A stretch of 37,675 nucleotides of DNA from NCBI GenBank assembly GCA_022925895.1, contig JAKSYS010000615.1, forward strand, positions 1 through 37,675, written 5' to 3'. Shown piece by piece: positions 2 to 33,121 of this stretch; the stretch's first letter is position 1, and each line of letters opens with the position of its first letter. Both the position numbers and the translations under genes were made by a program. The notes beneath the pieces are model-generated. The model ran no database searches. It was given only the letters and a program-made list of their open reading frames with translations, and was not told where the DNA came from. The DNA comes from Fragilaria crotonensis. Lineage: Eukaryota > Bacillariophyta > Fragilariophyceae > Fragilariales > Fragilariaceae.

Positions 2-1285
2 AACGGGCAGTGCACGTGCCAATGTGAAAGTGGTCGAGACTCTGGAAACGGCGGCAAGAGGAAACTCCGAGAGCGGCAAGAAGGAACTCTGGCAAGGGCG
101 GCAAGAAGGGGAACTCTGGCGAGAGCAAGAAGGGAACTCTGGTGAGAGCGGCAAGAAGGGAATTCTGGAAACGGCGGCAAGAAAGGGAACGCCGGAAGTG
201 GATCACTGGCGCCTTCGACTCCTCCGCCGACTTCGATTCCTGAAATAGTTCTGCCGCCGAGTCTTTTTGTATCCACCAGCCCAACTTCTGCGCCCACCAA
301 GGAGCTGTTCCGCACTGTTTCCTGCGAAGGGTTCGTCCCCGAACAGGCCGTCGCTCTGGACGTCCCATACCGTTACCAGGTTACAATTGATGAGAGCCTG
401 ATGGACATTGACGAGGCACGCGAAATCATTGAAAAAGCATTCTTGGATTCAGTTGCCAAGGAGCTTGTGGTTTGCGATGACGAAGGAGGTGGACGCGGAT
501 TGAGTTCCGGCGGCGGCGTTGCCGTGTCGGCTCTTCCTGAGGACAAATCTTGCGGAAACACTTGCACTGAGGGAGGAATGACTGTCTTTGTGCCGGAAAG
601 CGAATCAAATTCAACGGAAAGCCAGTGTCGCGCCCTTGCGACGATGAACGCGACCATTGCTGACATTTTGGCCGAAAATCCTGGGATCACCAGCATCACC
701 TTGCCAGAGAATGAGGATTTGCAGTGCGACAACGAAAGTGACACTCCACCACCTGTTTCTGTTGTAAGCATGAATTCGGCTGAACCATCCTTCCCAGTTG
801 CTGGGGTGACAGCGGGTGCAGTAGCGGCTGCTCTGTTTGCACTCTTGGCCTTCTTCGTATTGCGGCGACGTCGCAAACCTCAAGCTCGTCAGGATGTTGT
901 TCATGTCTGGTCACCAGATGGTGGAGCGACAGAAGCGTATAAATGTGGCTACATGGATGGATATGCATATCGTGTTGATGAATTCAAGGCTGGGCGTCAA
1001 AACAAGGATGACTCTGCGAGTGTGTGCGACGACATGCCAACTCGGACGGAGCTAGAGGGAAACGCCTTTGTTTTGGGATTCAATCTTGAAGATTCGATCG
1101 ATGCCTACTGCAATGGGTTCAGGGACGGATACGACGCTGCGTCTGCTGACTTGATTCATACTACGTGTGATGTCCATAAATGTAACTCTGCTCGGTGTGA
1201 GCTCTGTCGCAAAGATACGAAACCGCAGTTTCAGCCGCTCGTGAAGGAGCCTGACTGTTGCTCGTTCGATTTGTGTTGCACCTGA
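2..1285 (+). CDS. Single-pass membrane protein, 5'-partial and frame-broken paralogue of the 2304-4416 gene
   Basis: The 5' end lies outside the window. From about 146 to 1285 the frame is open: a Pro/Ser/Thr linker, a folded ectodomain (SCEGFVPEQ, then YQVTIDESLMDIDEAREIIE, then LPEDKSCGNTC), a membrane helix at about 790-860 (AAALFALLAFFVLRRRR) and a cytosolic tail with GYMDGYAYR, YCNGFRDGYDAA and HKCNSARCELC. Each block matches the downstream paralogue in order. At the far left the same frame reads a Cys-rich piece (CTCQC) like the CDCQC of the paralogue. Between them (about 50-165) is a GKKGNSG-type repeat that fits no single frame: several units lack one or two bases and the frame meets a TGA at 143-145. 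The missing bases total about six, so frame is regained. This is either repeat mis-assembly or a real pseudogene. Function unknown; probably surface or endomembrane, type I topology. Confidence 0.7.
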
Positions 1286-2303
1286 AAGCAATTCTGAACA
1301 GAATGTTGCCCGAGAAATGCACGCCTCCTTGGAATGGCCGCGCTATTTCTGCGAACATGAACGACATGAAGGTTCGGTTTGAGGCGACCACGTCATGTTT
1401 TGTGTCGATGTGACGGCGTCAGCCAGACCGTTACCTCATCGACTCAAGACTTTGTGAAAGTGACCATTCGTAAATGTATAGTAAAGAAAATGCATCTGGT
1501 ACACTAGTGTGAGCAATAGCCTGGCTGCACTAACGCCGGATATCATTTGGCTTTATCTCACAAACTGTGTGCTTGACCGGTCGAGCAGATTCGGGGAAGC
1601 CATATAGAGCATACGCGTGTCGAGTGAGGAGGGAAAGGCAAAGGCGTCCACATGCTGCCGGTACCTTAGAAATGCCAAAACGTTAGACTCATAGCTTCGG
1701 CATTCCCCTTGGACCTTGGATATCGTGATGGAGGGGCATCCGCGGTACCGCGGAGTATGAACTATTCAACAGGGACCAAACAACTAAGGTTTTGGTTTAT
1801 GTATTATTTATTATGTACTCCGTAGTCAAGATCGGCATGCAAAGGTGCGGCCAGGAGCCAAATTTTGCATGTGGATCCGTATGATGCTTACGAAACGGGT
1901 GATCATACGCGCACTCTTGAATAAAGTTTGAAATGATGGCCGAATAATGAGCTAAATTTTCTGCAACGTAGCCAATTATATGTGTGATATCCTATACCAC
2001 ATTCCGTTTCGCGGGATTGTCGTCCTTTTCCCCCTATAGTGGAAACGGTTCCACAGCTCGTTTATGGAGTGTCACGAGCCGACTATCGGTTCAAAATTGG
2101 TTCTACCAAACAACAAATTTGTGATCTGTCGCCAGGTTTTCTCTGCAACTCAGACCGGCAAATTCGAACCACATTTGGCGCTTGACAAAGTGAAGAAAGG
2201 AACGCGAAAACGGAACGGAAGATCTCTAGGAAAGCCAAAGTTCGGCAAACAAGTCTCCCTGAGCAGCATCGACGAAAGGCATAAATAAAATCCAACAGTT
2301 CCA
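1286..2303. other. Intergenic spacer between the two paralogues
   Basis: No protein-like frame of note. A 74-codon frame at 2064-2288 ends just before the next start codon, but it has ordinary composition and no recognisable motif, so I treat it as chance or 5' leader. The promoter of the downstream gene must lie here; no single element stands out. Confidence 0.5.
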
Positions 2304-3264
2304 ATGAAGGCAGCTCAACTCTTGACGTTGACCATTATATTCGGCTTGACAGCCCCTTCCGTCGCCAGAGTACAAAAGAGCGGACGACTGGCTTCCACAA
2401 GGACAAATCCAACATCGCTTGGTGTGAACGAAGACGGAGTTGGCTCTCGCGCGCTGGATCACAAGAATACTCGTCGAACATTGGGCTTGGGTGGAGGCCT
2501 CGTGAATCAAAGGTACGTCTCTTTCGATACACTCACATTAAGATTCAGTTTGATGTCTCGATTTATGCGCTTTCGACAGAGAGGGAAGTGGTGACAAGGA
2601 GTGACTTAGGAGATCCACACCTAGGCTTGTCTACGGAAAATGATGATCCTACTTACCTACATTTCATTCTTTAGTTTGCTTCTTTGAATCCAAGGTTTTT
2701 CGAACATGACACTGTCTTTATCCTTTTCTTACTCACATTACGTGTATCAGACGAGCTGAGTCGGACGAGGAAGGATGGTACAAATCCAACGACGACGACG
2801 ATTGCGATTGTCAATGTTATCACGACGAGTGTGAATGTGATTGCGGCGGTGAGTCGGTAATCATGAAAGGCCACAAGGAAGGTAAGAAAGGCGGAAAGAA
2901 GGGAAACGACGATCATGGCTCTGATGACGATGGCAGTGATTGCAATGATCATGGTAGTGATCACGGAGATGATGACGAAGCCGATGACGAGGCCGCAGAT
3001 GACTACACCGAAAAGGAAGGGAAGAAAGGCGGCAAAAAGGGAGGCAAGAAGGGAGGCAAGAAGGGCTATGACGACGACGGCTCTGACGACGACGGAAGTG
3101 ATTGTAGCGATGATGGTACTGCTGATCAAGGAGATGATGAACCGGAAGATGACTACACCGAAGTGGAAGGCAAGAAAGGCGGGAAGAAAGGTGGAAAAAA
3201 GGGAGGCAAGAAAGGAGGCAAGAAAGGTGGTAAGAAGGGAGGGAAGAAGGGATGTGATGGCAAT

Positions 3265-3299
<35 letters not shown>

Positions 3300-4416
3300 C
3301 GATGATGATGATGATGACGATGATGATGACGATGCAGGTTCACCCGCGGCACCTGGGCTCTATGATATTGTTTCATGCGATGGAAATGTCCCAGAAGATG
3401 CTGTCGGCGTGGAAATTTTGTATACTTACGATGTCGCCATTGATGACAGCCTGATTGACATGGATGAGACACGCAAGGTAATTGAAAAGGCACTTCTGGA
3501 TGCTGTTGCAGAGGAGCTTGTAGTTTGTGACGAGAAAAGCGATCGACGTCGCTTGAATTCATTCCTAGCCGTGTCTGCACTTCCAGAAGACGTTCCTGGT
3601 GAATCCTGCGGAGAAGGGTGCACTGAGGGAGGGATCACTGTCTATGTGGCAAAAGAAGAAAGCTCAAACGCTACTGATGTCAAGTGCCGTGTCCTCACCA
3701 TTATCGAGCAATCCCTGGATGACGTTGCCGACAAGGATGAGAGAATCAAAAGCATTTCCATGACAAACGATGTCTCGGAGTGCGACGGCGGGGACGACGC
3801 TGCAGACGCTGGGTCTTCGGTAGTGACTCTTGGGTCGCCTGAGCCTTCCTTTCCCATTGCTGCAGTGGCAGCTGCTGTTGCCGGTGCTGCGCTTCTCGCA
3901 CTCCTTGCTCTTCTGATCGTCAGGCGACGCGCGCACCGGGAACGTGAAGTTGATGGTCTGCCGGATGGAGGACCGGAGGAAGCTTACAGTCGAGGGTACA
4001 AAGACGGATATGCCTATCGTGTCGCTCAGTTCAAGGAGTTTCGGAACGGGAAGGGCGATCGCGAAAGTAGGGACAGCAACAAGCCTCCTTCTCAAGAAGC
4101 TCTCGAAGAATTTGCCACATCTTTGGGTTACACCAGTGAAGAATCGATGGCTGCGTACTGCAAAGGCTTCATAGACGGCTTCAATGCAGCGTGTGCTGAC
4201 TTGATAGAGACGACGTTGGACGTCCACAAGTGTACCTCGGCCGGATGCGATCGATGCCGCCGTTCCGCAGAGCCCCAATTCTTGCCGCTCTCGAAGGAAA
4301 CCAAACCCATGCTAACATGGAGAAACTTCCTACCGTCAGGAAGTACGAATGACAGGGACGACGAAGATTCCATTGCTCACGAAGTACGCCGTGCCTACCG
4401 TAAAAGGCGGAAGTGA
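2304..4416 (+). CDS. Secretory-pathway single-pass membrane protein with Lys/Gly and poly-Asp ectodomain
   Basis: Two exons, 2304-2512 and 2751-4416, give 624 residues. Residues 1-21 are a signal peptide (LLTLTIIFGLTAPSVA). A short linker leads to an Asp/Cys-rich patch (DCDCQC, CECDCGG). Next come three Lys/Gly blocks (GKKGGKKG) alternating with acidic stretches, then 23 consecutive Asp codons (3265-3333). A folded ectodomain follows (about 3340-3800: DIVSCDGNVPEDAV, IEKALLDAVAEELVVC, GESCGEGCTEGGITVYV). A membrane helix lies at about residues 436-459, then a basic stop-transfer RRR, then a tail with GYKDGYAYR, YCKGFIDGFNAA and HKCTSAGCDRC. The intron joins the Cys patch in frame with the signal peptide, supporting the start. 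The alternating strong charges recall proteins that organise mineral or extracellular matrix in diatoms, but no known family was recognised; that role is inference. Tandem paralogue of the gene to its left. Confidence 0.82.
2513..2750 (+). other. Intron of the Lys/Gly-Asp membrane protein gene
   Basis: The donor is AG|GTACGT at 2513 and the acceptor is TATCAG at 2750 after a pyrimidine-rich stretch (TCCTTTTCTTACTC). Removing 238 bases joins phase-2 exon 1 to the frame open through 4416; without splicing the first exon runs to a stop at 2592-2594. The two sides form signal peptide and Cys/Asp patch as expected. Confidence 0.8.
2863..3333 (+). repeat. Lys/Gly repeat blocks and 23-codon Asp run
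   Basis: Within the coding exon, GKKGG-type codons (GGC/GGA/GGT then AAG/AAA) recur in three blocks at about 2866-2904, 3010-3066 and 3169-3252, separated by SDDDGSDC-type acidic spacers. The run ends with 23 GAC/GAT codons at 3265-3333. Such tracts change length easily, so copy number here should be read with care. Confidence 0.85.
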
Positions 4417-5314
4417 AGAGCCATGGGAAGTTATTAAGGGCCGTCAGCACCAAAATGGAGGAATCTTATGTGCACCCTCCGTTCGAAAAAAACTCACCTT
4501 ATGCATTTTGAATGGAGAAAAAGCTGACATTTGAGCGAAACGTCAGGTCGTTCGGAAAAAGCGAAATGAGAGGCTCATATGGCTGTATAAAAACTATCGA
4601 ATACACAGAATGATGAGTTTGCATTTTCATTTTATGCTTTATCCATATTAGGAATCTTGCCCATCCATGAATCGAAAAGATATCGGAGGATGGCGCGTTT
4701 TACGGTACAAGTACTACTACAACATAAAAATGGCTGAGTCCATAAAAACAATGTTTTCGACTAAAAATATCTCGACGAAAAGCAGTTGCAACGCACTCAG
4801 CGCCATGACGAAGAGGGAGATCATGCTTCGAAGTACACATCGATTTAATCATTTATGTACTGGAGGATGAATTCATTGAGATCTCGACGATCTTGCAAGC
4901 ATCGTTTTAGATTTAGGGACTCAACGCCATTCATGGAATTATCCTAGTACACGTGTCTTTTTTATATTCTTCCGTTAAGCTTTTTTATACCATTCGACGT
5001 AAATTTTGGGATGTACTTTTCGTACTGCTACGCTGACTTCCCGCAGTTAACTCGGAGTGGTGTGCAGTGTGCATGGTGTACTACGTATCATATTGTAGAA
5101 TTCAGACGAGTTCACAAGTCATCACAACGTTGTTGCGACGATCACTCTATTCTCTTGCACATGCTCATCGTTGACTCACGCAATTGAACAATCATGTTTT
5201 GACTGGATGTGTACTCTTGTTGACTACCTTATCGTTTGGGGTTCTGCTGGCATTGGCAATGGTGTACGAGCATAGAACGGAATTGGCTCTTTTGGCTCAT
5301 CACGAGCGCAGGTG
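4417..5314. other. Intergenic, AT-rich, no gene seen
   Basis: Only short unrelated frames on both strands; none longer than about 67 codons and none with recognisable motifs. No repeat or hairpin stood out on reading. Confidence 0.5.
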
Positions 5315-6242
5315 TCACACAACCTGGTAGCTAAGTAACGATTGTCGGTTTGTTGGTGCCGATGAGTCGGCCGGGCGCTTAAACCACAATACTATGGTCC
5401 TCAATTCTGATACAGTCATTTGATCATGCAGTTTGTTGCGAGCTAGTTCCTGAAACTTTGTCTTGCAGGGTCCTAAACTATCGTATCTCCTTCTGAATTT
5501 TCTCACACTCGTCTTCTTCATCCCAAACCCTATCTCGGTCAGCAATATCCTTCAACAAATCAGGACCTAGTGCATGCAATCCAGAAGCAACAAGGCAACC
5601 AGCGGTGACTCTTTTGCCAGTTTCCATGGCATCAATTGCTGACTGCTTTTGTTTGCGGCGAGTTTCTAATACGCCAAGCTTGTCGATGCTTTCAAGTATA
5701 GCAACCAGTAAGTCACCAGTAGTGCTCCCACTTTCTGATGCACAGCAGAGTGAAGGTTGGAGCCTCAATGCCATTGACGTTATAGGTACTAGGTCCCATT
5801 GGAAGGGGTTTTCCCATGCCCGCATTCCTTTCTTGTAAGTGTTCGTCGTCTCCATCCCACGATGCGCTTGCGTCAAACCCAAGCACCCAACTTTCTTGCA
5901 GCTTTTTGGCAGCAAAAATTTTCAGTTGTGAATCCAAGCACCGTGAAATGGGAGTTTTTTTGTTGCAGCTCAAACTTGTGGTTGCCATTGTACAAGACAA
6001 AGAAATTTCTCACCCCAGACATTTCCATCTTTTGTGGTTGTTGAAGTATTGGATCCGACCTTGTCAACAAAGATGAGCTTGTCAGGGCGGCACATTGTGT
6101 ATCCTCTGGTTGGAAAACCTGTGGCGGTGTTGGCGTCAGTGGTCGTAGGGTCGCCATCAGTGTCCAGAAACGCTTTGTCAGTATTCTTTGTAGCAAGACC
6201 TCCCTTGACCAGCATCTCCTTGTAAAACTCCTGGTAGTACAT
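5315..6242 (-). pseudogene. Decayed DNA-transposon transposase (diatom repeat family)
   Basis: Read right to left, consecutive pieces in shifting frames make one protein. First KGGLATKNTDKAFLDTDGDPT and CRPDKLIFVDKVGSNTS (5970-6242), then HFTVLGFT and WVLGFDASASWDGDDEH (about 5713-5930). Next come SESGSTTGDLLVAILESIDKL and RVTAGCLVASGLHALGPDLL (5478-5760), then MTVSELRTIVLWFKRPADS (5315-5470). This order matches, from memory and not from a search, a transposase-like protein abundant in diatom genomes, in which FVDE-x-GSN supplies the first acidic active-site residue. At least three frame changes are needed. The central stretch, which in intact copies carries a DGHGSR-like motif, appears to be missing between LGVL and ETRRKQ, so it is an old inactive copy. 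No terminal repeats were found around it. Confidence 0.65.
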
Positions 6243-7173
6243 TGTTGAGAAGTTATGGTACGTTCACCAATCGACCCTTTTCAACTCAAACTTTACGGCT
6301 TCGTTACTCTTTACCTGATGTCCATTTTGTTTCATAAATCCATTATTTCAGTATTCCCACCAAGATCCGAGGAGGAGAGGACCACAGCCAGGATCATCGG
6401 ATTTCATTCAATATTGAATGTTGTGCTTCTGTTTCCAGGCTTTGATCTCCAATTTCAATAAAGTCCCAGCAACATTGGAGTTTGCCAGCTGAAGTTCAGT
6501 TGTGACATTGATTGGCAATTGCATTCGTGATAGTTGTGTAGTCAGGTCGACAATTCAGGGTTCAACAGTGAGCATTAGAGATGGAGTTCCTTGGCGCACA
6601 GCAGGGTTGACTTTCTTCTCAACCAAACCCTAACAGTTGCGAGATGACATGATACTACCGGTACCGGAATACGGACGATGCTGACTTGTTAAGTTATAGC
6701 AGTAGCGTGATGAAAGTTGCAATTAAACCGTTATCTAGTAGATTTCTCGAAATCATTTACGAACATACGGCTTCGGTATGTCTAAATCAAAACAGAAGGT
6801 CCGGCTTAATAATGTAAGTTTAGTAGATTCCAACACTGCCGAACGTGCGAACGTCCATTTTTCAGTGTCATTATCAGCAGACATGCCTCTCAAGTGATTG
6901 TTGCTCCCTGCAAATATCAGGCAGGAGCTCCACATGGCAAGGAACATTCTCCCCGTTTGTGATATCCTGATAAGTTGTCAGATTCGAAGTTAATATTGCA
7001 CTTTTAGGGACTCCAAGCCATTTTTAGGTGGTAGTTCAGTGTGCTTACCACCGTTTACGGTAAGTTTGAGGTTTGAGGTGGTCAGGGTAGGGTAGTCTAC
7101 GGTCTACGGTAGTGTCAAACCAAATATGTACATGTAGCATCCTATTCGAGAAGACTTCGGTGGGTTGCTAGTA
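6243..7173. other. Intergenic, no gene seen; one dispersed repeat copy at its right end
   Basis: No convincing frame. At 7011-7033 lies CCAAGCCATTTTTAGGTGGTA, a diverged copy of the terminal motif of the element at 30869-31549. Downstream (about 7040-7120) are short G/T-rich microrepeats such as TTTGAGGTTTGAGG and TCTACGGTCTACGG. Confidence 0.5.
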
Positions 7174-7201
7174 CTCCCTCCGTCCGAATATAGTAGTCCC
7201 A
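7174..7201 (+). repeat. Left terminal inverted repeat of the Stowaway-like element
   Basis: Starts CTCCCTCCGTCCG directly after TA (7172-7173); pairs with 8542-8569 over 28 bases with two mismatches. Confidence 0.85.
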
Positions 7202-7500
7202 CTTAAACTTTCAGTCGAGAAAATTCTGGCATTTCACCGAAACGTCATGTCATTTGCATTGCTCTAAATGAACACTATCGATCTATGTATAACATCAAAT
7301 GCATGCGTTTCGATCTGAATGTTCAAAATTGAGTTTTCAGGTCGCAATTTTCGAAATAAATTTTTCTTAAGGCTTTAACTCGCGCAGATGACCTCCCCGG
7401 TCCCAAAGCTTCCGTTACGACTTTTTCAACTATACATGACGAACACAAAACGTACTGGGGGCTAAACAAAAAAAATCGTTTACAGAACGCTGTGATACCT

Positions 7501-8130
7501 GGGACATCCGGAATTCCTTCTTATTCTGTTAGTGCGTGACACAGATATACGTATGTCATAGATTTAAAACTGAAATTTAATCAATATTCAAAACTGAATA
7601 TGTTCATTACGATGTCGGAAGAGTATTGGCTAGCGTGCGAGCCAGCGTGGCATCGTGGCGAACTTATTTACGAGAAGAAATCTGATTGTGAACTTATTTA
7701 CGAGAAGAAATCTTCTCGTGAACTTATTTACGAGAAGAATTCTTCTCATGAACTTATTCATAAGAAGAAATCTTCTTATGAACTTATTTAAGAGAAGATT
7801 TCATCCTGTCAATACACTTTCTCGTAGAAGTCCAACTTAAAAACGAGAAGGTATCTAATCGTGAACTTATTTACGAGAAGAAATCTTCTCATCAACTTAT
7901 TTAAGAGAAGAAATCTTCTCATCAACTTATTCATGAGATGCTTTCTAATCGTGGACTTATTTACGAGAAGAAATAACCTCCGAGCGTGCCAAGCCCCCAA
8001 TTGCATTCATGACGCCAGCCAGTATCCATTGACGTTATTTATTAAGCGGTCGTGTGTCACGTGACTCGATTTGACAGCCCTAAAAAAACTCTCGGTACAG
8101 TGAGGTTCAAGAAGGAATTCCGGATGTCCC
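7501..8130. mobile_element. Inner inverted-repeat unit nested in the Stowaway-like element
   Basis: A perfect 22-base inverted repeat, GGGACATCCGGAATTCC..., sits at 7501-7522 and 8109-8130 and encloses the minisatellite. It may be a second small element inserted into the first, or internal structure of one element. I see no clear target duplication (flanks ACCT and TGAA), so the nesting is inference while the repeat is certain. Confidence 0.55.
7660..7975 (+). repeat. 30-bp minisatellite, about nine units, each with a hairpin core
   Basis: Units of 30 bases begin GAACTTATTTACGAGAAG. Five stand at 7660-7809 and four at 7863-7975, with a diverged stretch between. Most units contain GAGAAGAAATCTTCTC, a six-base inverted repeat around AAAT. 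Both strands read open in the array only because 30 is a multiple of three; I do not regard it as coding. Confidence 0.85.
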
Positions 8131-8541
8131 TGAAAGGTTGCAGTCCTGACGGTAGTTTTGCATGAAGTCATTAACGGTCATTGTTCACCCCTTTTATGTG
8201 CTTACTAAATCAATATCGCACCATATAGGAAAAACTAACGGATTTGGTTAATTAAAAATCGTGTCTCGAATTGCAAGGACACTTTTCCTCATACAAGGCT
8301 CATTCAAAACTCTATGTAACTATTAGTGGCCTTTACTTTGAATACTGTTCCGTTTCCATGTGTTTCATTCGACATGACATATTGAATGCCAATTATGCGG
8401 AATTTTTTGTCACAATGCGGAAATTTCTCTAAGTAGCGTCGGTTGAGAGAGCGCATGCCTCGCCATCGTGTAGAAAGATACCAACAGCCTACGTCCAAAT
8501 GACTGAAAGACACCGGATGGGAACCCCTTTAAAATATTAGT

Positions 8542-8569
8542 TGGGACTGCTATATCCGGACGGAGGGAG
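8542..8569 (-). repeat. Right terminal inverted repeat of the Stowaway-like element
   Basis: Ends CGGACGGAGGGAG directly before TA (8570-8571); reverse complement of 7174-7201 with two mismatches. Confidence 0.85.
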
Positions 8570-8849
8570 TAGTTGCTAACCGTTTAGGTATATATGTACA
8601 GTACAAGTACAAGATTCAACACGTTGTGAAGAACAGAATGGAAGGGGTATTCTCATGTTTCATGCTGCACTCGCACTATTTCGCACGATCCTCACGAATT
8701 CCTATGTCATACTCCGAGTACTCTCTCTAGAGAGAAGCGTACTGGAGTACCTAAGTCCTAGTACCAGTACCTACCAGTTTCATACACAACCATACATTGC
8801 AGCATTGAGATCGCGCACGAAGCGAATTGTTCAGCCTTTCTTACATCCC

Positions 8850-11277: not shown

Positions 11278-14213
11278 CTACTCATTCAGAACATGCTCTT
11301 TCGAACCCTCGTCCATTGTCGGTAGATCAAAACTCCGATTGCGGGGACGAGCACTTTCATCAAAGCGAGAAGTCGAAAGGCCACCAAATGAGACACGAGA
11401 ACTTCCATCTAGATTTGATGTCGAAAGTCCACCTAACGAGTCATCAAAACTCGATTGTCTCAACCTCGAGACAGGGACGACCTCTGCAGTGGCAGCTTTC
11501 GACAGGGAGCTTCGTTTTAAATTCGCACTGGCTACTCTCGCTCGTATCGCTTCAATCGTATCCGAAGGAGGAAGACTCTGGACGCTGGCGCCACTGGAGC
11601 GACGACCAACATTTGCGCTGTGACGTGCGCCAGACCCTTGTTGCATGGATGTTTTCCAGGCAGACACCGTCAATGACCGTGATTGCTCAACATTGATCAG
11701 TCGGAGCTTGGAAACAAATAGAGGGAGTAAAATGGCGAAGCATAGGAGAGTGACGAGAATGGATCGAACCACAAGGTCGACCTTCGGCCTTTCCTTGGAC
11801 AGAAAAATCATAGGAACTCCAATAAGTAAACTTTCGAGAACACTAAGCATCGACAGGCCAATGTAGCTCGTCTCGTTGAATTCAGCTGGCATCATTCGTG
11901 TCCGATAGGTTTGATAATTGCCAATGACGACAAAGATCAGATTGACGGCAAACAGAGTTCCGACGAAGGCTCGATCTGCTTCGGTCTCAGTGTAACCACA
12001 TCGACCTACAGACTCGATCGACCTGCCGTACTTGTCAAAGTTCATGAGATCCGACCGAATCCATGTCAAAGGTGCGGTAGCAGTCCAACTTATCAGAAGA
12101 GCAACATTAATTATCGAAACAAGGACAAACGGGTAGATGACATCCCGGATGGTGACATTCTTCCGCCTCATTTTGACAGAGTGATGAAATAATAGATTGA
12201 TACGGAGCGACTTGCAGAGAAGAGACGAACTCGCAGTGCCAAACCCCAACACAAACAACCAAGGAGTAGCCATGCAGGCGGCGTCCAACCCTGCCTGTGG
12301 TATTGGTTCTTGTAGACTCATTGGTATGATACAGGATGCCATGAGCAATGTTCCGGCACACAACATGAGGAGAAAGAATGGTTGCGACGAACGAACCACG
12401 TGCTTTTGTCGGTACCAAATCGTCCAAGCAGCGAAACCGATTGACGCTAGAATGGCCAAAACTGACAAGGACCACATGAATGCTTGAATTCCCAACGGTA
12501 GGTCATTGTTGGACACTTCGATTGGCGGCAACTCCATGGGACGTTCCGATGAGCCTCCGTTGAAAACAAATGGTGACAAAATTGTGACGTTGCCGCTCGC
12601 TACGCGTATTAGTGCAGATGCTCGCACGTCAAGCCCAATGCTTTCATCGTCGGCGGAAATGACCACATTCATGACATTGAACGCCAATCCATTCGAAGTT
12701 CTTGTGCCAGTCACTGGATCGAAAGAAATTGGTCCGGATACGCCTTCAAATTGAGTTGATTTGACTTGCAGCAACATTTGATCAGAAGTAATGAACTCTT
12801 CCTGGGAATCGCACAATGCGATACCGAGGACATGATTGCATCGTAATTCGTGTACTGGTACAGAGAGGGCGTCGCAGCAAAGTGAAAACCTTCAAAAGTC
12901 GTCAAATTATCATGCCTCGAAATATAGTAATCAATAAGCTCTTGATCCTTCCCCATTTCCGCCATGGCTTGTTCAAATGGAGGATACGGCGGTGGACTGA
13001 ACAATATGACACCAATTCCGGAAAGGGCTTGTGCAATGGCGCGGTCCTCTGCGACCGTCGCTTGGAGCGTCGTATTGTAAAACGAAGGTAACAGGAGTGG
13101 GGCAAATCCATCACCAAAGTGCCACGAATACAGTGGATTCCCAATAACACCGGCATTCATCCCTTCTGTCACAATCATTTTGACGCTGGTCGTCGCCGCC
13201 GAAATTATACCAAACATATATCGCATTCCCGTTCCCTTGAGTTCCAGCATGGCCCTCCGTATGGATTCAACATCACCACCTTCATAGGGGACGGCCTTGA
13301 TGATAATGTTTTGTTCACTCGCGGCAGATGCCAAATCCTTGGCAAATTGGCTCCCGTACGCGTCTCGGATAAAGAGAACACCCAATCGAGTCACGTGCAA
13401 GTGTTGTTTAAAGTATAATGCCGCGGCACGGGCATCGACGGCATTGGTCGGGACTGTCCTCATGAATGTGGGAGATTGGTCCTTATTTTCTAGAGAAGAT
13501 GATGTGGAAGCACAATTCATGTGCGGTATGTTGTAGGATCCTGAAATAATGGAAAGTGGTACAGATGAGGAGGAGCGAAAATCTCCCAAAATTGATACTG
13601 GTTGAGGATTTTGAAGGGAGCGTTTCTCAACACGTGAATTGTAGAGAAGGCGTGATGCTTGAATGGGAGAAAATGAAGAATCCTTCATGTCCATGGTCAA
13701 GTAAACATTGCAATTCGCTAGTCGTTCCGACAAGTACGGCAAAACCTGGTCTGATCGTTGGTTGAAATGATGCATCGCCAGAAATCCGGCAGCCTCAATG
13801 TAAATATTCGTTGTCGCAGGACTCTTGACTCCGTTCGTGATTTGCGTACTCGGCATTATGCTCAAGATGTGAGCAAGTCGATAGCTATCCACTTTGATGA
13901 CAGCCGAGGATGTTGAGAATTCAACACTTTCACCTCCTGATATTCGAAGATCATCCCAATATGATAACGACCTGTTTGTATTGTCATCTGCGTACTGATA
14001 TTGTCTAGCCTTCGATGCTGTGGTTGGTGCCGAATTATTCGATGATTGATCCATGCTAGCTGCGAAATGCAGCATTTGAAGTGAATCCATGAATGGCAAC
14101 ACGATCGATCCGAAATTGATATGCAATGGACTCAGTACCTGCGTTCGATGCGTCACTCTATTCGAATGTATACAGCGACGGCCACGGCAGCAACGATGAT
14201 TGGCAAATGCCAA
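11278..14213 (-). CDS. Class C (GABA-B/mGluR-like) G-protein-coupled receptor, one frame break
   Basis: About 978 residues if one frame change is bridged. The N-terminal half (about 14000-12720) is a bilobed periplasmic-binding-like ligand domain, with FMRTVPTNAVDARAAALYF, RLGVLFIRDAYGSQFAKDL and a C-terminal YQYTNYDAIM. The second half has seven membrane helices in class C order: LGIQAFMWSLSVLAILASIG, SSQPFFLLMLCAGTLLMAS, CMATPWLFVLGFGTASSSLL, IYPFVLVSIINVALLISW, FVGTLFAVNLIFVVIGNY, SYIGLSMLSVLESLLIGVP and ILVTLLCFAILLPLFVSKL. A Ser-rich cytosolic tail follows. The frame breaks at about 12828, where a GG (CC on the coding strand) needs a third base to read MSLGIALCDSQEEF. The N-terminus is uncertain: no ATG plus signal peptide is in frame, and a hydrophobic stretch (PIIVAAVAVAVYI) just upstream is in another frame. 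Ligand unknown; receptors of this class are known to be numerous in diatoms. Confidence 0.85.
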
Positions 14214-15720: not shown

Positions 15721-16130
15721 TCCTGTATAGTTGGGTGGGGGCTCGAGGTCCCACTACAGTTCACCCGTTCACCCTCTATCATAACATCTTAACTTGTACA
15801 TTCGTCAAGCAGCTACAACTGTACCACTCTGTTCCAAAAAAAAGAGTGCCATTTGATTTTTGGTTAGGGTTCTCATTTGGTGTCTTTTGGTCATTATGCT
15901 GTAGACCATCAGTATATCTCAACGTTTTGCCACTGGACAACACGGCGAGAGTTGAGTGGCGAACTGGTGAATTGAGTCCGAAGTACTAGCACCAGTGCTA
16001 CCGGTAGTGGCGTAGAGTTGACGAATAAGACAGTAGCCTCGGAAAAAATTACATTTTTATCTTTTTGATCCATTCTAATTCACAAACAAACTTTACGGCA
16101 CAACACGTCACAAAACTGATGAGGTCGACA
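15721..16130. other. Intergenic, no gene seen
   Basis: Short spacer between two plus-strand genes, without recognisable repeats. The promoter of the peptidase gene is expected here. Confidence 0.5.
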
Positions 16131-17237
16131 ATGGCATCCTGCCAACACCGGAGCATGCTTCTACTCTCTCTTCTTCTATTATTCTGCAAACTTGAGCAGG
16201 TAGTTGGGTTTGTTGGCGCCCCTCCCAGTTTTCATCAAACCAAACATTTGCATGGTCGCCATGATCGTTCGTCCAGGCCGCGTCATCACCGTCACTCTTA
16301 CAGTGTTGGCAGCAGCTTATTCGCCGCTGCTACGAATACGGGTACTTTGCTGGTATCGCGTTCAGATGGCAATGAGTACAAACTGGCATACCGTATAGTT
16401 CGACCCATGACACTATCGTCGCGACAAGCCGCTCCCGTCGTGGTCCTACATGGTGGACCATCTCTACCTGCCGACTATTTGTATCCTCTCGAACAAGCGG
16501 TAGAGTACCGATCGATTGTATTTTACGATCAAATTGGATGTGGTCGGAGTGATGAGCCTAACGATAAGGCATGTTATTCAATCGACATGGCGTTGGATGA
16601 CTTGGAAGCCTTGTTGAAGATACTTGGAATCAGACGATTTCATTTGTACGGCCAAAGCTTTGGTGGTATTCTGGCCTACGAATATCTGAAACGACGGACG
16701 CAACAAAGTCAGCTCAACGTTGCTAAGGATGCAGATCCAGTTTGCCTATCCTGTGTACTATCCTCTACTCCGACAAGTGTCAAGAGAGTGGAGGAGACGT
16801 ATGATCAACTTTTGGATGCACTTGCTCAGGATCCAACATTGGAGGGTATTTCACTACAGGAACGATTCCGCATGACACATCAATGCCGAATGGCTGCATC
16901 ACCACAACCTCTGTTGGACGCCTATGCTCATGCTGGAACGGTCTGGCGTGGTACAGATGCCATCAAGACATGGGAGGCAACTCCCATTTCTGATATCACA
17001 AACATGGAATCATCGTCGGCATCAGGAGCCTGTTTGCCGCCCATGTTGATTCTGCGCGGTGAATATGACTTTGTAACAGAGGAATGCTCTGCGCGTTGGA
17101 AGGAGGTACTATTGCTGCCTGGAACCATCCAGCAGGTTCGATTTCGAGTCCTCAAGAGGTGTTCCCACCATGGATTGCTGGAGGATGGACCAAAGTATGG
17201 TGAAGTACTGGATTCGTTCTTTGCGGAATTCGACTGA
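16131..17237 (+). CDS. Proline iminopeptidase-like alpha/beta hydrolase (S33), probably plastid-targeted
   Basis: Serine hydrolase expected to release N-terminal proline from peptides. Landmarks in order: VVVLHGGPS with the HGGP oxyanion motif; FYDQIGCGRSDEP, typical of this family; GQSFGG with the nucleophile Ser; Asp in LRGEYDFV; His in CSHHGLLEDG. About 368 residues, slightly longer than bacterial enzymes because of the leader. The leader has a signal peptide (MLLLSLLLLFCKLEQVVG) followed by FVGAPP, with Phe directly after the predicted cut as in diatom plastid presequences, then a basic Ser/His-rich stretch. I chose ATG 16131 because its context (ACAATGG) is better than that of the in-frame ATGs at 16065 and 16119. 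No intron or frame break. Other S33 hydrolases remain possible for the exact substrate. Confidence 0.85.
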   Translation: MASCQHRSMLLLSLLLLFCKLEQVVGFVGAPPSFHQTKHLHGRHDRSSRPRHHRHSYSVGSSLFAAATNTGTLLVSRSDGNEYKLAYRIVRPMTLSSRQAAPVVVLHGGPSLPADYLYPLEQAVEYRSIVFYDQIGCGRSDEPNDKACYSIDMALDDLEALLKILGIRRFHLYGQSFGGILAYEYLKRRTQQSQLNVAKDADPVCLSCVLSSTPTSVKRVEETYDQLLDALAQDPTLEGISLQERFRMTHQCRMAASPQPLLDAYAHAGTVWRGTDAIKTWEATPISDITNMESSSASGACLPPMLILRGEYDFVTEECSARWKEVLLLPGTIQQVRFRVLKRCSHHGLLEDGPKYGEVLDSFFAEFD

Positions 17238-18077
17238 GATGATGACATGAAAAATCCATTGCCAGCATACAATCATGAGCTATGGGACTCTGTTCGGCGT
17301 AGCAGTACGAAAGCCTGAAGAACATTAATTGTTTCCTGTTTCTCTCATGACTGAGGTGCACTGAGTGAGCACTCTCAAACATTTTGGTGAGGTAGTTCCG
17401 TTGCACACCGTCGATCTACACTGCACTCGTTATCGATCAAACATAATCTTTGGCATCCTGATGTGGCTGCTCAGAAAAGTTGTGAGAAAGGCCCGTGTCA
17501 CGAGGATATTGTTGCCCCATGTGTGTGTCTGTGTGTGCGCGCAGTTTGGCCTCGACTTCACATCCAAACGAAAACCACTGGTGTGTACACTTTACTGGTA
17601 TTCCCCGAACGATGGGCATTTAGTGCCTCGTACTTCTCTAGAATTGGCCCAAGATGAACTCTGCCACATTAGGCCACAGTCTCAATGCATTGCTCCGCCT
17701 TCATGTTTCTAATATGTTTAATTGAAACTCAACCTTTGTCGTAAGCATTGAGAGATCTGTACAATCTAAGCGGCATCTGCATCACTTGGTGTAAACTTGA
17801 GGAAATATGTTGGTTCTAAGCCATTTTTATGTGGTACTGCAATCCAGTAGTCTGTGGTTTCACGGTTTCACGGTTTCACCATATTGTAGGTGCATTTGGA
17901 ATTTGGATCATATTAAATCATAGGGGAAATTACAATATCACGCATTTTTTTGCCACTTCACATCAAAATACCAAGTGTACCCATCACAGATTACAACATC
18001 GCATCACATCGCACACACGTCGTACACAGTCCACAGACATCACCTTGTCAGCAACTGTCGAACTTAACCCGAGGAAG
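17238..18077. other. Intergenic, with one copy of a dispersed terminal motif
   Basis: No gene. At 17810-17838 is GGTTCTAAGCCATTTTTATG followed by TGGTACT, nearly the same as the right end of the element at 31519-31549; no matching left end was noticed. A short GTGTGTCTGTGTGTGCGCGC tract lies near 17520. Confidence 0.55.
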
Positions 18078-19145
18078 ATGATCCGGAGTTGCCGACGTGC
18101 CATTCGTCACTTATGCCAACCTTGCCGTAATGTCAATAACATAAGTAATGCTGATGATGAAAAAGCTTTCATTATGGCAAGCTATACGGGCCGAGTCGAA
18201 GTTATTCGTGAGTTGTTGCAACGCGGCACCGTTGATGTGAACCTCAAGGAATGGCGTGGCCGAACAGCCCTCGTCATTGCAAGTACGGTAGGCCAATTGG
18301 AAGTTGTTCGTGAATTGTTAAAACATGACATGGTCGATTTGAATGTCCGTGATCGCAATAATGATGAGACTGCCCTCATATGGGCAACCCAAGGAGGAAT
18401 CTTGGAAGTTGTTCGGGCATTGTTAAATCATTACAAAGTGGATGTGAACGTCGCTGATGGGGATGGCAACACAGCCCTCATATGGGCTAGCCAATATGGT
18501 CATTTGCAAATCGTTCGTGAATTGTTAAATCACGACAAGCTGGATGTGAACGTCCGCGATTTCAAAAATGGTGCGACAGCCCTCATCGAGGCAATCCAAG
18601 AAGGCCACTTGGAAGTTGTACTTGAGTTGTTAAAACACGACAAAGTGGATGTGAACGTTGCGGATACGGATGGTACGACAGCCCTCATCTGGGCTACCCG
18701 ATATGGTCGTTTGGAGGTTGTTCGTGCATTGTTGAAACGCGACAAGGTGGATGTGAACGCCGCAAATAATTATGGTGAGACAGCCCTCATAAGGGCAAGT
18801 AGATGCGATCAGGTGGACATTGTTCTTGAATTGTTAAAACACGACAAGGTGGATGTTAATCTTCAAACTCGCATCGGATGTTCCGCCCTTATCTGGGCGA
18901 CCCTTAACGGCAGATTGGGCGTGGTTTCCGCCTTGTTGACACACAAAAACGTGGATTCAATTTTAAAGAATGTTGCAGGATCAACAGCTCTTGATATTGC
19001 CCGCAATTGTAATATGACTGATATTGCCAGACTTCTTGAGGAGCATGCTAATCTGTGTGTGCGTCGCCGCAACGCGGAAGAGTGGAAGCGGACGAGTGAC
19101 TCGAACGGGAGTCGAGAATTGGCGTGGAGACCAGTTGGTTGTTGA
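18078..19145 (+). CDS. Ankyrin-repeat protein, nine repeats
   Basis: 355 residues. A short basic Cys-containing N-terminus (MIRSCRRAIRHLCQPCRN) precedes nine ankyrin repeats of 34-35 residues. The repeats share the pattern G-TALIWA--GHLEVVRELL-HDKVDVN, with TALxxA and the VVxxLL second helix well kept. The eighth and ninth are most diverged. A basic tail (CVRRRNAEEWKRTSD) ends the protein. There is no membrane segment or catalytic domain, so it should be a protein-binding solenoid in cytosol or nucleus; the partner cannot be told. The frame stays open upstream to 17829, but 18078 is the ATG next to the domain. The repeats resemble each other at DNA level, suggesting recent internal duplication. 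Confidence 0.85.
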   Translation: MIRSCRRAIRHLCQPCRNVNNISNADDEKAFIMASYTGRVEVIRELLQRGTVDVNLKEWRGRTALVIASTVGQLEVVRELLKHDMVDLNVRDRNNDETALIWATQGGILEVVRALLNHYKVDVNVADGDGNTALIWASQYGHLQIVRELLNHDKLDVNVRDFKNGATALIEAIQEGHLEVVLELLKHDKVDVNVADTDGTTALIWATRYGRLEVVRALLKRDKVDVNAANNYGETALIRASRCDQVDIVLELLKHDKVDVNLQTRIGCSALIWATLNGRLGVVSALLTHKNVDSILKNVAGSTALDIARNCNMTDIARLLEEHANLCVRRRNAEEWKRTSDSNGSRELAWRPVGC

Positions 19146-20096: not shown

Positions 20097-21210
20097 CTAC
20101 CTCTTCCAAAACGTCAAAAGCACCTTCTGTATCAGAGTCTTTGATTGGGACGCCCGAGCAATGTCGACAGTAACCGACGCTTCTTTGGCAAAGCCCTTCT
20201 TGATTTGGCTACAGAACAACGCAAATTCCTCCCTTCAAGCCTCCATATCCTTGGCTCCTCCTGAGGTTCCTTGCAATACATCAGCAAGCAAACGATCGTT
20301 CGCGGTGGGATCTTCGTTAACACTCATTGATTTTGATGTCCGAGCAACGTCGACTGTCAGCGACGCTTCTTCTTCCAAGCCGTCATAGATTTTGCTGCAA
20401 GACCTCGAGAATTCTTCACGCAGCGCCGCCATATCAGGTCGCAATGGAGTGGCTTGGACACCAACCGAAATTTCCTTGGCAAGGTCCATATGCATTTGAC
20501 TGCAGGACCTTTTCAACTCTTCCCGTAGTGCCGACAAATCTGTCCCTCCTGAAGTTCGCCTTGGAGCTGCATGCGTCGGGGTTCGGCTCGAGATAGGAAC
20601 GGGAACGTTGACTTCAACAGACGCTTCCTTTGCAAGGTCCATATGCATTTGGCTGTAAGACTTTTTTAATCCCTCCCGTAGAGAAGCCAGATCAGTCCTT
20701 CCTGAGGTTCGCCTTTGAGCTACATTCGTCGGGATTGGACTCCTGATAGGAAAGTTTACTTCAACCGAAGCTTCCTTGGAAAGGTCCGAATGCATTTGAC
20801 TGTATGAAGTTTTGAATTCCTCCCTCAGAGCTCCCAGATCAGGCCCTCTTGAGGTTCGCCTTGTAGCTGCAATCGTTGAGGTAGGACTCTGGGTAGGATT
20901 GTTGATTTCAACCGAAGCTTCCTTTGCGAGGTCCAAATGCAATTGGCTGTATGACCTTTTGAATTCCTCCCTTAGAGCCCCCAGATCAGTCCCTCTTGAG
21001 GTTCGCCTTGGAGCTGCAGTCGTCCTGATTGGGGACCGGAGAGGCGCTTCGACACCCATCGACGCTTCCTTTACCAAGCCGATATTGATTTGGCTACATG
21101 ATCGTTTGAACTCCTCCCGCAGACCCGCCATGTTAGTTCCTCCAGAGGTTCGCAGCGGAGCTGCATTCGTCCAGGCTTGCCCTTCGATAGGAATGTCGTC
21201 CTTCCCTGCC
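20097..21210 (-). repeat. Seven ~150-bp coding tandem repeats
   Basis: Each unit encodes LREEFKRSxSQMHxDLAKEA plus a variable linker. Units two to four are closest to each other; five is short; six and seven share VDVARTSKS / VDIARASQS, forming a separate subtype. Confidence 0.8.
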
Positions 21211-21281
21211 ATTTTGATATTGACACTGGCAGACGTCGCGAAGGTCGAGAGCAACAAAATATATATGGCTGGTTTCACCAT
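20235..21281 (-). CDS. Secreted protein of ~50-aa tandem repeats
   Basis: 348 residues, unrecognised. A signal peptide (MVKPAIYILLLSTFATSA) precedes six complete repeats of about 48-60 residues. The core is ALREEFKRSYSQMHMDLAKE then ASVEVN, followed by a Pro/Ser linker and RRTSGGTDL. The core should form an amphipathic helix; RRTS resembles a basophilic kinase site. After the stop TGA (20235-20237) the same frame stays open to TAG 20097-20099 and encodes a seventh core (REEFALFCSQIKKGFAKEAS). The TGA stands exactly where the other repeats have Leu. So the protein is truncated by a recent nonsense change, or the stop is read through, or the base calls are wrong here. No membrane segment after the signal peptide. 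Function unknown. Confidence 0.7.
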   Translation of the reverse strand: MVKPAIYILLLSTFATSASVNIKMAGKDDIPIEGQAWTNAAPLRTSGGTNMAGLREEFKRSCSQINIGLVKEASMGVEAPLRSPIRTTAAPRRTSRGTDLGALREEFKRSYSQLHLDLAKEASVEINNPTQSPTSTIAATRRTSRGPDLGALREEFKTSYSQMHSDLSKEASVEVNFPIRSPIPTNVAQRRTSGRTDLASLREGLKKSYSQMHMDLAKEASVEVNVPVPISSRTPTHAAPRRTSGGTDLSALREELKRSCSQMHMDLAKEISVGVQATPLRPDMAALREEFSRSCSKIYDGLEEEASLTVDVARTSKSMSVNEDPTANDRLLADVLQGTSGGAKDMEA

Positions 21282-30868: not shown

Positions 30869-31549
30869 AGTACCACATAAAAATGGCCTTGGCCCAATAA
30901 AATGGCTTTGAACCAATCTCTTGTGAAATTCAAGGAACTCTACACAAAAACAATCCATTTTCCATAATTTCACACCATGACCTATTATAAAGCTCTCCTC
31001 AGATAACCAATAGAGATATGTTCTGCTGATAGAAAAGCATTTTAATTGCTCAATTCTCTGAAACATACTGCAGATGAGGCATCAAAACATTGTTGCACGA
31101 CCATTTTCACATGTCGAGGATGCCCTCCCAATTTCTAAAGCTACAGTTCTGAATATTTTCATACGTTTGAGAGAATTCCACTTGGCATTTGTTCTACACT
31201 ATGTGGTACAAACAGCTCGTCAAAACCCTGTACCAATACAATTTCGATTGACGATTCAACATCAAACTCTTGTGAAAATATTAAGAACGCAATATAAAAT
31301 ATTATCTATATATGTATTTATATTTATACATGACTTTGAACCAGTAAATGAAAAATGAAGACTTGTATATCATCGATAGGCAATTCGGATCTTGCTCCAG
31401 TACTTTGATCATTCCTCATTGCTGTTGACAAGCAGATGAAGGATCAATGATATAAGAACTGTTCGTTGAACATTCATGTTTCTACGGAGATGTAGTAATT
31501 TAAAACTCTTGTGAAACTATTGGTTCCAAGCCATTTTTTATGTGGTACT
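30869..31549. mobile_element. MITE-like AT-rich element with terminal inverted repeats, 681 bp
   Basis: The left end, AGTACCACATAAAAATGGC (30869-30887) continuing to TTTGAACCAAT (30905-30915), is inverted at the right end, 31519-31549 (ATTGGTTCCAAGCCATTTTTT then ATGTGGTACT). The left copy has 19 extra bases between the two blocks, itself a partial repeat (CTTGGCCCAATAAAATGGC). The interior is AT-rich with no coding frame. Single-end copies of the same motif stand at 17810-17838 and 7011-7033, so the family is dispersed. TA flanks CCACATAAA at both ends, which would suit a TA target duplication but also follows from the palindrome. Autonomous partner unknown. Confidence 0.6.
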
Positions 31550-31912: not shown

Positions 31913-33121
31913 ATGATGTTCTCAACTTGCATTGTAACTGTGCTCGGCGCTGTCGCATGTTTCATGGCGATTCCAAACGTCCACGGCTTTTCGGTGCCGA
32001 CGACCGCAATCTTCCAAAAGTCCATTGCACTGCAGGCCACTCCTCGTCGTCATGATGACAATGGCGACCAATCTCTTATCCGAGAGATGACCATTAAAGA
32101 TCGCCGTACCTTTTTGCTTCTGGGGAGTGCCTTTTTGACAACGACTGCGGGAATGACGGCCAACATTCAACCGGCCATGGCAGCCGACGCTACAACCCCA
32201 GCTGCTGTCGATTACAAGGCCGTTGCTGCAGATATTGCTAAACTCATTACGGAAGACCCCGACAAGGGACCCACCTTGGTCCGACTCGCGTGGCACTCGT
32301 CGGGCACGTATGACAAAATGAGCAAAACGGGAGGTAGTGGAGGTGGAACCATCCGATTCAAGGAAGAACTGGACCATGGAGGCAACGCCGGATTGGCTGT
32401 TACTGCCGTCCAATGGATGGAACCCATTTACAAGGCACATCCAGGAATTTCATATGCTGATCTCTATACCCTAGGCGGAGGTAAGGAACTGACTTTGTGT
32501 GCTGTTTGTTCTTTCATTCGTACATCATCTCACAAAAAGCATTTTCCCTGCAATACCATTTTCTCCCCCCCAATAGTCGCTGCCATCAAGACCCTGGGCG
32601 GTCCCACCATTCCCTGGTCAAGCGGCCGCGTCGATGAATTGGATCCCTCCGCGGTAACACCAGATGGTCGCCTCCCGAATGCCGACGTTGGTCCCAAGGG
32701 TGCTGACCCGTCAGATGCTCAACATTTGCGCGATATTTTTTATCGCATGGGCTTCAATGATGCCGAGATTGTCTGTCTCAGTGGTGCCCATGCCCTCGGT
32801 CGTTGTCATCCGACAGCGTCGGGATATGATGGACCGTGGACTCCAACTCCGACTGTCTTCAACAACGCGTACTATACCATCCTTCAAAACTTGAAATGGG
32901 TCGAGAAGGAATGGGATGGTCCGACACAGTACGTCAATTCTCCATCGGGGAGTCTCATGATGCTCCCTTCCGATTTGGTCTTGCTGCAAGACAAGAAGTT
33001 TGCAAAGTATGTCAGTGTCTACGCCAAGGATGGCGCCAAGTTCAACTCAGACTTTACCAAGGCTTTTCAAAAATTGGAAGAGCTGGGAACCAGCGGCCTT
33101 ACTCCAACCGAGTGGGCTTAG
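31913..33121 (+). CDS. APX: Ascorbate peroxidase, thylakoid-lumen targeted
   Basis: Haem peroxidase of class I; reduces H2O2 using ascorbate. Exons 31913-32480 and 32577-33121 give 370 residues. The distal site is PTLVRLAWHSSGTYD, with catalytic Arg, Trp and His. The proximal haem ligand is His in EIVCLSGAHALGRCH, followed by TASGYDGPWTPTP. IPWSSGRVDE and FNNAYYTILQNLKW also fit. The leader has three parts: a signal peptide (MMFSTCIVTVLGAVACFMAI) cut at HG|FSVPT with the diatom plastid Phe; a transit stretch; then KDRRTFLLLGSAFLTTT...AMA|AD, a twin-Arg thylakoid signal. This places the enzyme in the lumen, next to where photosystem II can form peroxide. ATG 31913 is the first in frame (31916 is alternative). 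No frame break. Cytochrome c peroxidase is the nearest alternative, but overall this reads as APX. Confidence 0.88.
   Translation: MMFSTCIVTVLGAVACFMAIPNVHGFSVPTTAIFQKSIALQATPRRHDDNGDQSLIREMTIKDRRTFLLLGSAFLTTTAGMTANIQPAMAADATTPAAVDYKAVAADIAKLITEDPDKGPTLVRLAWHSSGTYDKMSKTGGSGGGTIRFKEELDHGGNAGLAVTAVQWMEPIYKAHPGISYADLYTLGGGKELTLCAVCSFIRTSSHKKHFPCNTIFSPPIVAAIKTLGGPTIPWSSGRVDELDPSAVTPDGRLPNADVGPKGADPSDAQHLRDIFYRMGFNDAEIVCLSGAHALGRCHPTASGYDGPWTPTPTVFNNAYYTILQNLKWVEKEWDGPTQYVNSPSGSLMMLPSDLVLLQDKKFAKYVSVYAKDGAKFNSDFTKAFQKLEELGTSGLTPTEWA
32481..32576 (+). other. 96-nt stopless intron in the ascorbate peroxidase gene
   Basis: Donor GGAG|GTAAGG and acceptor CCCCCCAATAG|TC. Splicing gives TLGGVAAIKTLGG, as expected for the family. 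The length is a multiple of three and it has no stop in frame, so retention would insert 32 residues and still give a full protein. Confidence 0.85.

Follow-up and report, generated by a model that had tools for sequence, protein, structure and literature searches.

A tandem gene pair of the diatom Fragilaria crotonensis encoding predicted membrane-anchored polyampholytes of silaffin-like composition

Introduction

Among the diatom wall proteins described in the excerpts of the literature used here and below, silaffins, cingulins and silaffin-like proteins (SFLPs) possess a signal peptide, RXL sites and lysines clustered in KXXK motifs with Gly/Ser spacers, a silaffin pentalysine cluster being five interspaced Lys in 12–14 residues; silaffins occur in biosilica with modified Lys and phospho-Ser. 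Clustered KXXK lysines carry polyamine-type modifications and aid targeting to silica, the role of polyanion falls to acidic phosphopeptides, and cleavage is presumed to take place at RXL sites (PMC4557024, PMC5501833, PMC9650480). Silacidins, which have strongly acidic secreted stretches and RXL processing, are Ser-rich phosphopeptides freed from a repetitive precursor. The silica vesicle membrane proteins described in the cited papers are the silicanins and the Silicalemma associated proteins (SAPs). Silicanins such as Sin1 are type 1 membrane proteins with a signal peptide, RXL and a Cys-containing luminal region; their hallmarks are an NQ-rich luminal region with 18 conserved Cys, the motif GGQKFAL at the membrane border and a 20-residue tail, and Sin1 has been proposed to be a short-lived membrane anchor. 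SAPs combine a signal peptide, RXL, one membrane helix and an adjoining cytoplasmic domain with a conserved 28-residue segment. The luminal parts of Sin1 and TpSAP3, carried on one membrane helix, are reported to stay in silica. How silica patterning is steered by proteins that span the vesicle membrane is an open question. In this study, a tandem pair of genes (gene 1 and gene 2) at positions 2–4416 of F. crotonensis contig C576 was analysed. The entire contig (37,675 nt) is referred to as the window, and C-numbers denote contigs of the same assembly (62.1 Mb, 881 contigs). Judged from their predicted products, there is about an even chance that the two genes encode membrane-anchored silaffin-like polyampholytes that serve in the construction of the silica wall or of its organic matrix.

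Gene structure

Gene 2, the downstream copy, extends from 2304 to 4416 on the plus strand and comprises two exons with a product of 624 residues. Its parts are as follows:

2304..2512, plus strand: exon 1, with ATG at 2304, encoding predicted signal peptide and propeptide
2304-2366, plus strand: predicted signal peptide (hydrophobic start)
2448-2456, plus strand: RAL in the propeptide, residues 49-51
2475-2483, plus strand: RTL in the propeptide, residues 58-60
2513..2750, plus strand: predicted intron GTACGT...TATCAG, with GT-AG consensus and boundaries as in C702
2751..4416, plus strand: exon 2, including the stop codon
2803..2844, plus strand: Cys/Asp patch CDCQCYHDECECDC of the CxCxC type, six Cys
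2881..3333, plus strand: alternating GKKG and acidic blocks, with GKKG at 2881-2904, 3019-3066 and 3169-3252
3265-3333, plus strand: run of 23 Asp, end of the acidic part
3355..3783, plus strand: ectodomain with six invariant Cys and, exposed in the structural model, R-R-L at 3547-3555
3850..3921, plus strand: single hydrophobic, predicted membrane helix, directly followed by RRR
3922..4413, plus strand: tail of 164 residues with a predicted three-helix GYxDGY module and the motif DVHKCTSAGCDRC at 4219-4260

Every element that an initial annotation of this DNA had listed for the downstream copy (signal peptide, Cys/Asp patch, GKKG and acidic blocks, 23 Asp, ectodomain, helix and tail) was found. 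The intron, a sequence-based prediction, was selected from about 20 in-frame splice pairs because it has the best splice consensus and the C702 copy keeps identical boundaries. The signal peptide was predicted from composition rather than by SignalP, the best 10-residue hydrophobicity mean being 2.52. The charged segment (151 residues) contains 27 Lys, 6 Ser and 3 Tyr; in 20,000 shuffles of this segment, the longest Asp run had a mean of 4.4 and a maximum of 15, compared with 23 observed. Ten KXXK motifs (X = G) were counted, whose copies abut within a block with no residue between them, and 44 windows of 14 residues hold at least five Lys, arranged as KK pairs.

The contig starts inside gene 1, so that the start of this upstream copy lies beyond the contig end. 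The remaining parts are:

2..34, plus strand: second half of the Cys patch (NGQCTCQCESG)
35..205, plus strand: K/G-N-S-G repeats, distributed over three reading frames, one of them interrupted by TGA at 143-145; unbroken in C702
302..727, plus strand: ectodomain, with R-G-L of the conserved R-x-L at 494-502
791..862, plus strand: predicted membrane helix
863..1285, plus strand: tail module, DVHKCNSARCELC, stop codon TGA

Over ectodomain, helix and tail, gene 1 and gene 2 are 51% identical, which bears out the earlier suggestion that these three parts are kept in both copies. A tandem pair in identical order is present on C702, where the main aligned pieces are 90–95% identical to C576 and partly rearranged (for comparison, counterparts on C597 and C383 described below are 98.4% identical); the C702 pair may be the other haplotype or a duplicate. 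In C702, the K/G region of gene 1 is unbroken and is accompanied by a full patch CHCKCHNGQCTCQC but by no long Asp run. The spacers of the NSG type that had been ascribed to the upstream copy are seen in this unbroken version, whereas the K/G part of the C576 copy is frame-broken. No convincing candidate for the start exon of C702 gene 1 was detected in the 1,600 bases scanned upstream. Between the two contigs, gene 1 differs from ectodomain to stop by nine synonymous changes and one non-synonymous change, corresponding to a ratio of non-synonymous to synonymous substitution rates (dN/dS) of 0.03. Because this part is so strongly constrained, the frame breaks are read as a probable assembly error at the contig end rather than as the mark of a dead gene.

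For gene 2, the same comparison gave dN/dS values of 0.44 for the N-terminal part, 0.13 for the charged blocks, 0.11 for the ectodomain, 1.06 for a 20-residue stalk (four changes), 0.42 for the helix and 0.26 for the tail, values that derive from two sequences with an ambiguous repeat alignment; the C702 version ends ten residues earlier. Since the aligned codons are constrained, the charged blocks appear to vary in length yet keep their residues, with due caution for repeats that align ambiguously. The proposal that the charged part evolves fast on a stable chassis therefore holds for its length but not, in these two sequences, for its aligned codons.

The two contigs also differ around the gene pair. 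C702 lacks some 4.2 kb that separate gene 2 from the P450 gene (window 4384-8633) and include a 30-bp repeat array at 7660-7974; it has an additional, second P450-like stretch at 5131-7075. The first 639 bases of C702 match window 30900-31547 in opposite orientation.

Comparison with known wall proteins

Gene 2 shares with silaffins, cingulins and SFLPs the signal peptide, the RXL sites after it (RAL and RTL) and the clustered KXXK lysines; by its hydrophobic start it also agrees with the signal peptide criterion given in the excerpts of a published silaffin-like screen (PMC5501833). In contrast to these proteins, its Lys blocks alternate with Asp blocks and its KXXK copies abut, and it combines a predicted membrane anchor with a folded ectodomain of six Cys and a structured tail. 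Gene 2 is thus silaffin-like in predicted composition, and we do not file it as a silaffin. With silacidins it has in common strongly acidic, presumably secreted stretches and RXL sites. Its acidity comes from Asp, however, and the Ser-rich acidic repeats of silacidins were not found, as there are only 6 Ser in the 151-residue segment.

The predicted topology (type 1, with signal peptide, RXL and a Cys-containing luminal region) resembles that of silicanins. An assignment to this family was rejected, given that there is no NQ-rich region (N+Q make up 4.1% of the luminal part), that GGQKFAL is lacking and that the tail comprises 164 residues rather than 20; Cys count and spacing differ as well. 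Similarly, the signal peptide, RXL, single membrane helix and adjoining cytoplasmic domain recall SAPs, an assignment rejected on the criterion of a Ser-rich luminal region: Ser accounts for 7% of the luminal part, compared with 15–25% overall in TpSAPs as described, and the tail of gene 2 is long, helical and modular.

Ectodomain and cytoplasmic tail

The ectodomain was found at six places in the genome (two each on C576 and C702, one each on C51 and C61), which represent four gene kinds. All six Cys and R-x-L are invariant in the six aligned rows, two of which are identical. The hydrophobic helix after the ectodomain is also present in C51 and C61; in C51 the charged blocks are smaller and the tail is of another kind. 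No family exceeded the threshold in Pfam or NCBIfam, and comparison with the PDB by sequence gave a single match at E 0.82. The earlier description of a membrane-tethered polyampholyte outside described families is therefore supported, and the search for a family with an unrelated role returned nothing over threshold in these three databases.

An AlphaFold model based on the six-row alignment (mean predicted local distance difference test [pLDDT] 66.8, predicted template modelling score [pTM] 0.62) shows the order strand-helix-strand-strand-helix-strand, a common beta-alpha-beta-beta-alpha-beta arrangement as modelled. R-x-L lies in an exposed loop of low confidence that connects the first helix to the second strand. 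SEA-type domains, in which a cut site is possible, have the same order of elements beside a membrane helix, and the modelled ectodomain is similar in these respects. It differs from them in its invariant Cys, in the position of R-x-L between first helix and second strand and in the lack of a Pfam match: the four distinct ectodomains gave no match to SEA or other ferredoxin-like Pfam families up to E 1. Structure searches with the model yielded scattered weak matches, on which no fold relationship is claimed. Among collections of viral, bacterial and archaeal sequence, none of 52 pattern stretches in viral contigs and none of 22 in genome contigs was confirmed as a relative, a result that, because of the content of these collections, says nothing on other diatoms.

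The tail module has the form AYxxGYxDGY...LSxxxLxxxAxxLGY...AYCxGYxxGF (13 units aligned) and is predicted to fold into three helices with a core pLDDT of about 95; no convincing PDB match was obtained. There is one copy in each window gene and at least seven in C61. A membrane protein encoded on C383 and C597 carries many copies without this ectodomain:

C383, ~139600-142300, minus strand: tail-module membrane protein; the C597 counterpart is 98.4% identical there

At the C-terminus, the tail carriers have in common DVHxCxSxxCxxC or a variant close to it. Within the tail region, the reading frame shifts in the genes on C61 and C383, reflecting introns or assembly error, so that the extent of both genes is provisional.

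Charged secreted proteins in the genome

The charged blocks are present in all four ectodomain gene kinds. Similar blocks, a point absent from the initial annotation, are found in many further secreted proteins that the genome encodes. The coding pattern for GKKGGKKG gave 58 exact matches on 13 contigs, as opposed to 11 for the reversed pattern, and GKKGDDDD, which is absent from gene 2 itself, gave 82 matches on six contigs as opposed to none in the control. Charged proteins that start with a hydrophobic stretch and show no further hydrophobic helix over the length read are encoded on C19, C23, C169, C290 (two adjoining genes) and C383 (~60 kb); for those on C17, C34/C306, C139, C324/C355 and C851, the translation examined did not include the start. 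This wider set is defined by shared composition and patterns, and common ancestry is not implied. A Pfam search with seven charged proteins produced a single match at E ≤0.001, a beta-helix on C17, which was below the cut-off.

All nine charged precursors with a readable start have a hydrophobic N-terminus. R-x-L occurred within residues 21–75 in five of the nine (about 1.8 expected, p ~0.01), with a total of seven occurrences (2.1 expected, p ~0.003). The C19 and C383 proteins have a comparable Cys patch, which is interrupted by a GKKG block. C-x-C pairs exceeded shuffles in all five members tested, which had been picked because a patch had been seen (the observed count was reached by 0 of 5,000 shuffles in four members and by 5 of 5,000 in C383). 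The secreted charged protein on C23 (minus strand) contains R-x-L-E-G before Asp runs (LLRTLEGDDDD, LFRILEGGDDDD), an arrangement that recalls precursors processed into repeats at RXL; the C-terminal part of the protein looks leucine-rich by eye, yet gave no Pfam match.

Discussion

The assembly analysed was generated with Nanopore, Canu and Pilon and has a published completeness of 81% (PMC9476933). A profile search with the silicon transporter family PF03842 returned 19 matches, 18 of them above the cut-off; the host is accordingly a silicifying diatom, as had been presumed from the window. Silicon transporter domains also occur in tandem within single open frames, with three at C97:29749-33762 (1456 residues) and two at C771:21664-24330.

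A role of the gene pair in the silica wall or its matrix is made more likely by the silicifying host, the KXXK and Lys clusters, the enrichment of R-x-L, the shared Cys patch and the codon constraint. The RXL sites, the KXXK lysines and the set of similar secreted proteins had not been used in the initial annotation, and a wall role appears more likely with them. A membrane-tethered luminal brush has a precedent, because Sin1 and SAPs carry charged or Ser-rich luminal parts on one helix.

If the two proteins act in this way, their topology, cutting, lysine modification, location, mineral activity and tail function might be arranged as follows. The signal peptide would route the chain into the secretory path, where an RXL protease would trim the propeptide. 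Facing the lumen of the silica deposition vesicle, the Lys-rich GKKG blocks could offer sites for polyamine modification and silica targeting and the Asp blocks could serve as a polyanion like silacidin. At the vesicle membrane, the charged brush would collect polyamines, silicic acid or further charged polymers of the wall. The Cys patch may cross-link chains or bind metal. The compact ectodomain would keep the brush attached to the membrane and may itself undergo cleavage in the exposed R-x-L loop, leaving the charged part in the wall; if the Cys flanking this loop are paired, the cut halves would remain joined until reduced. The helical tail would dock cytoplasmic partners.

Several observations weigh against a wall function. 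The KXXK copies abut, whereas those in the published silaffin-like screen, as excerpted, are 1–6 residues apart (PMC5501833), and four of the nine precursors (C61, C169, C23 and C51) lack R-x-L in the tested stretch, C61 being counted here because exon 1 alone entered the test, with RRL beginning the next open stretch. An exact DNA pattern for GGQKFAL had zero matches in the whole assembly, which left the analysis with no positive control from among the known vesicle membrane proteins; this does not mean that silicanins are absent, as an exact pattern misses sites split by an intron or changed in one residue and the assembly is, as published, 81% complete (PMC9476933). Finally, Lys/Gly/Asp repeats could be equally suited to adhesion or calcium binding.

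In an adhesive or colony coat, oppositely charged blocks would coacervate outside the frustule and glue cells to one another or to surfaces, with the membrane members anchoring the coat. Alternating Lys-rich and acidic repeats, as found here, suit coacervation. F. crotonensis is described as forming filaments (PMC9732472), and candidate diatom adhesion proteins are Lys-rich and modular (PMC4220933). The excerpts of that study, however, report that AC3362, the protein found by its adhesion screen, proved to be part of the silica-associated insoluble matrix (PMC4220933), and Tyr, which was selected for in that screen, is scarce in the charged segment of gene 2 (3 of 151). We consider a coat of this kind unlikely. 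A receptor or scaffold, in which ectodomain and tail do the work and the charged part amounts to a low-complexity stalk that expands fast and has little function of its own, would agree with the high-confidence prediction of the tail module, with its repetition in C61 and its occurrence in the C383/C597 protein that lacks the ectodomain, and with the reduced charged blocks and different tail of C51. It is rendered rather improbable by charged blocks that are common to the four gene kinds and recur in many secreted proteins lacking the ectodomain, as well as by the constraint on the aligned codons. Still less probable is a function in calcium or metal binding, with the Asp run and the CxCxC patch buffering Ca2+ or binding metal ions, either at the surface or along the secretory path: the 23 consecutive Asp and six patch Cys of gene 2 would suit it, but it leaves the 27 Lys in the same 151 residues unexplained, and C702 gene 1 has the patch and no long Asp run.

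Beyond a wall function of the pair itself, a larger wall-building kit not described before can be proposed tentatively, and we regard it as more doubtful than probable. Secreted K/G-Asp polyampholytes with a CxCxC...CxCxC patch and RXL would act together with transmembrane members. Through a new six-Cys ectodomain that is cut at the conserved R-x-L, and through a new helical repeat on the cytoplasmic side, the latter would physically connect a charged, mineral-organising brush in the vesicle lumen with the cytoplasm, perhaps with the cytoskeleton by which the vesicle is shaped. In the literature searched, whose coverage leaves out most subscription journals, no description of diatom K/G-Asp proteins was found; a published study of F. 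crotonensis under high-pH conditions, as excerpted, omitted genes of unknown function (PMC9732472). A chain in which lysine blocks of the silaffin type and acidic blocks of the silacidin type are coupled across the membrane to a structured tail would offer a direct candidate for such a link. The gene 2 chain should be easy to tag and cut, and the related secreted proteins provide a ready candidate list for wall proteomics in araphid diatoms.

Other genes in the window

Pfam searches identified genes for a cytochrome P450 (8655-10436), an alpha/beta hydrolase (16119-17237), an ankyrin-repeat protein (17829-19145) and a peroxidase (31913-33121), as well as a DUF6824-domain protein on the minus strand (34945-36543, E 3e-17). 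A receptor-like gene on the minus strand (11278-14090) consists of two overlapping open frames, which contain an ANF_receptor ligand-binding region and a 7tm_3 seven-helix part and are joined by a frame break or intron. The open frame at 20235-21281 (minus strand) has a hydrophobic start and is built of 147-bp repeats of about 49 residues each, its only Pfam match being sub-threshold.

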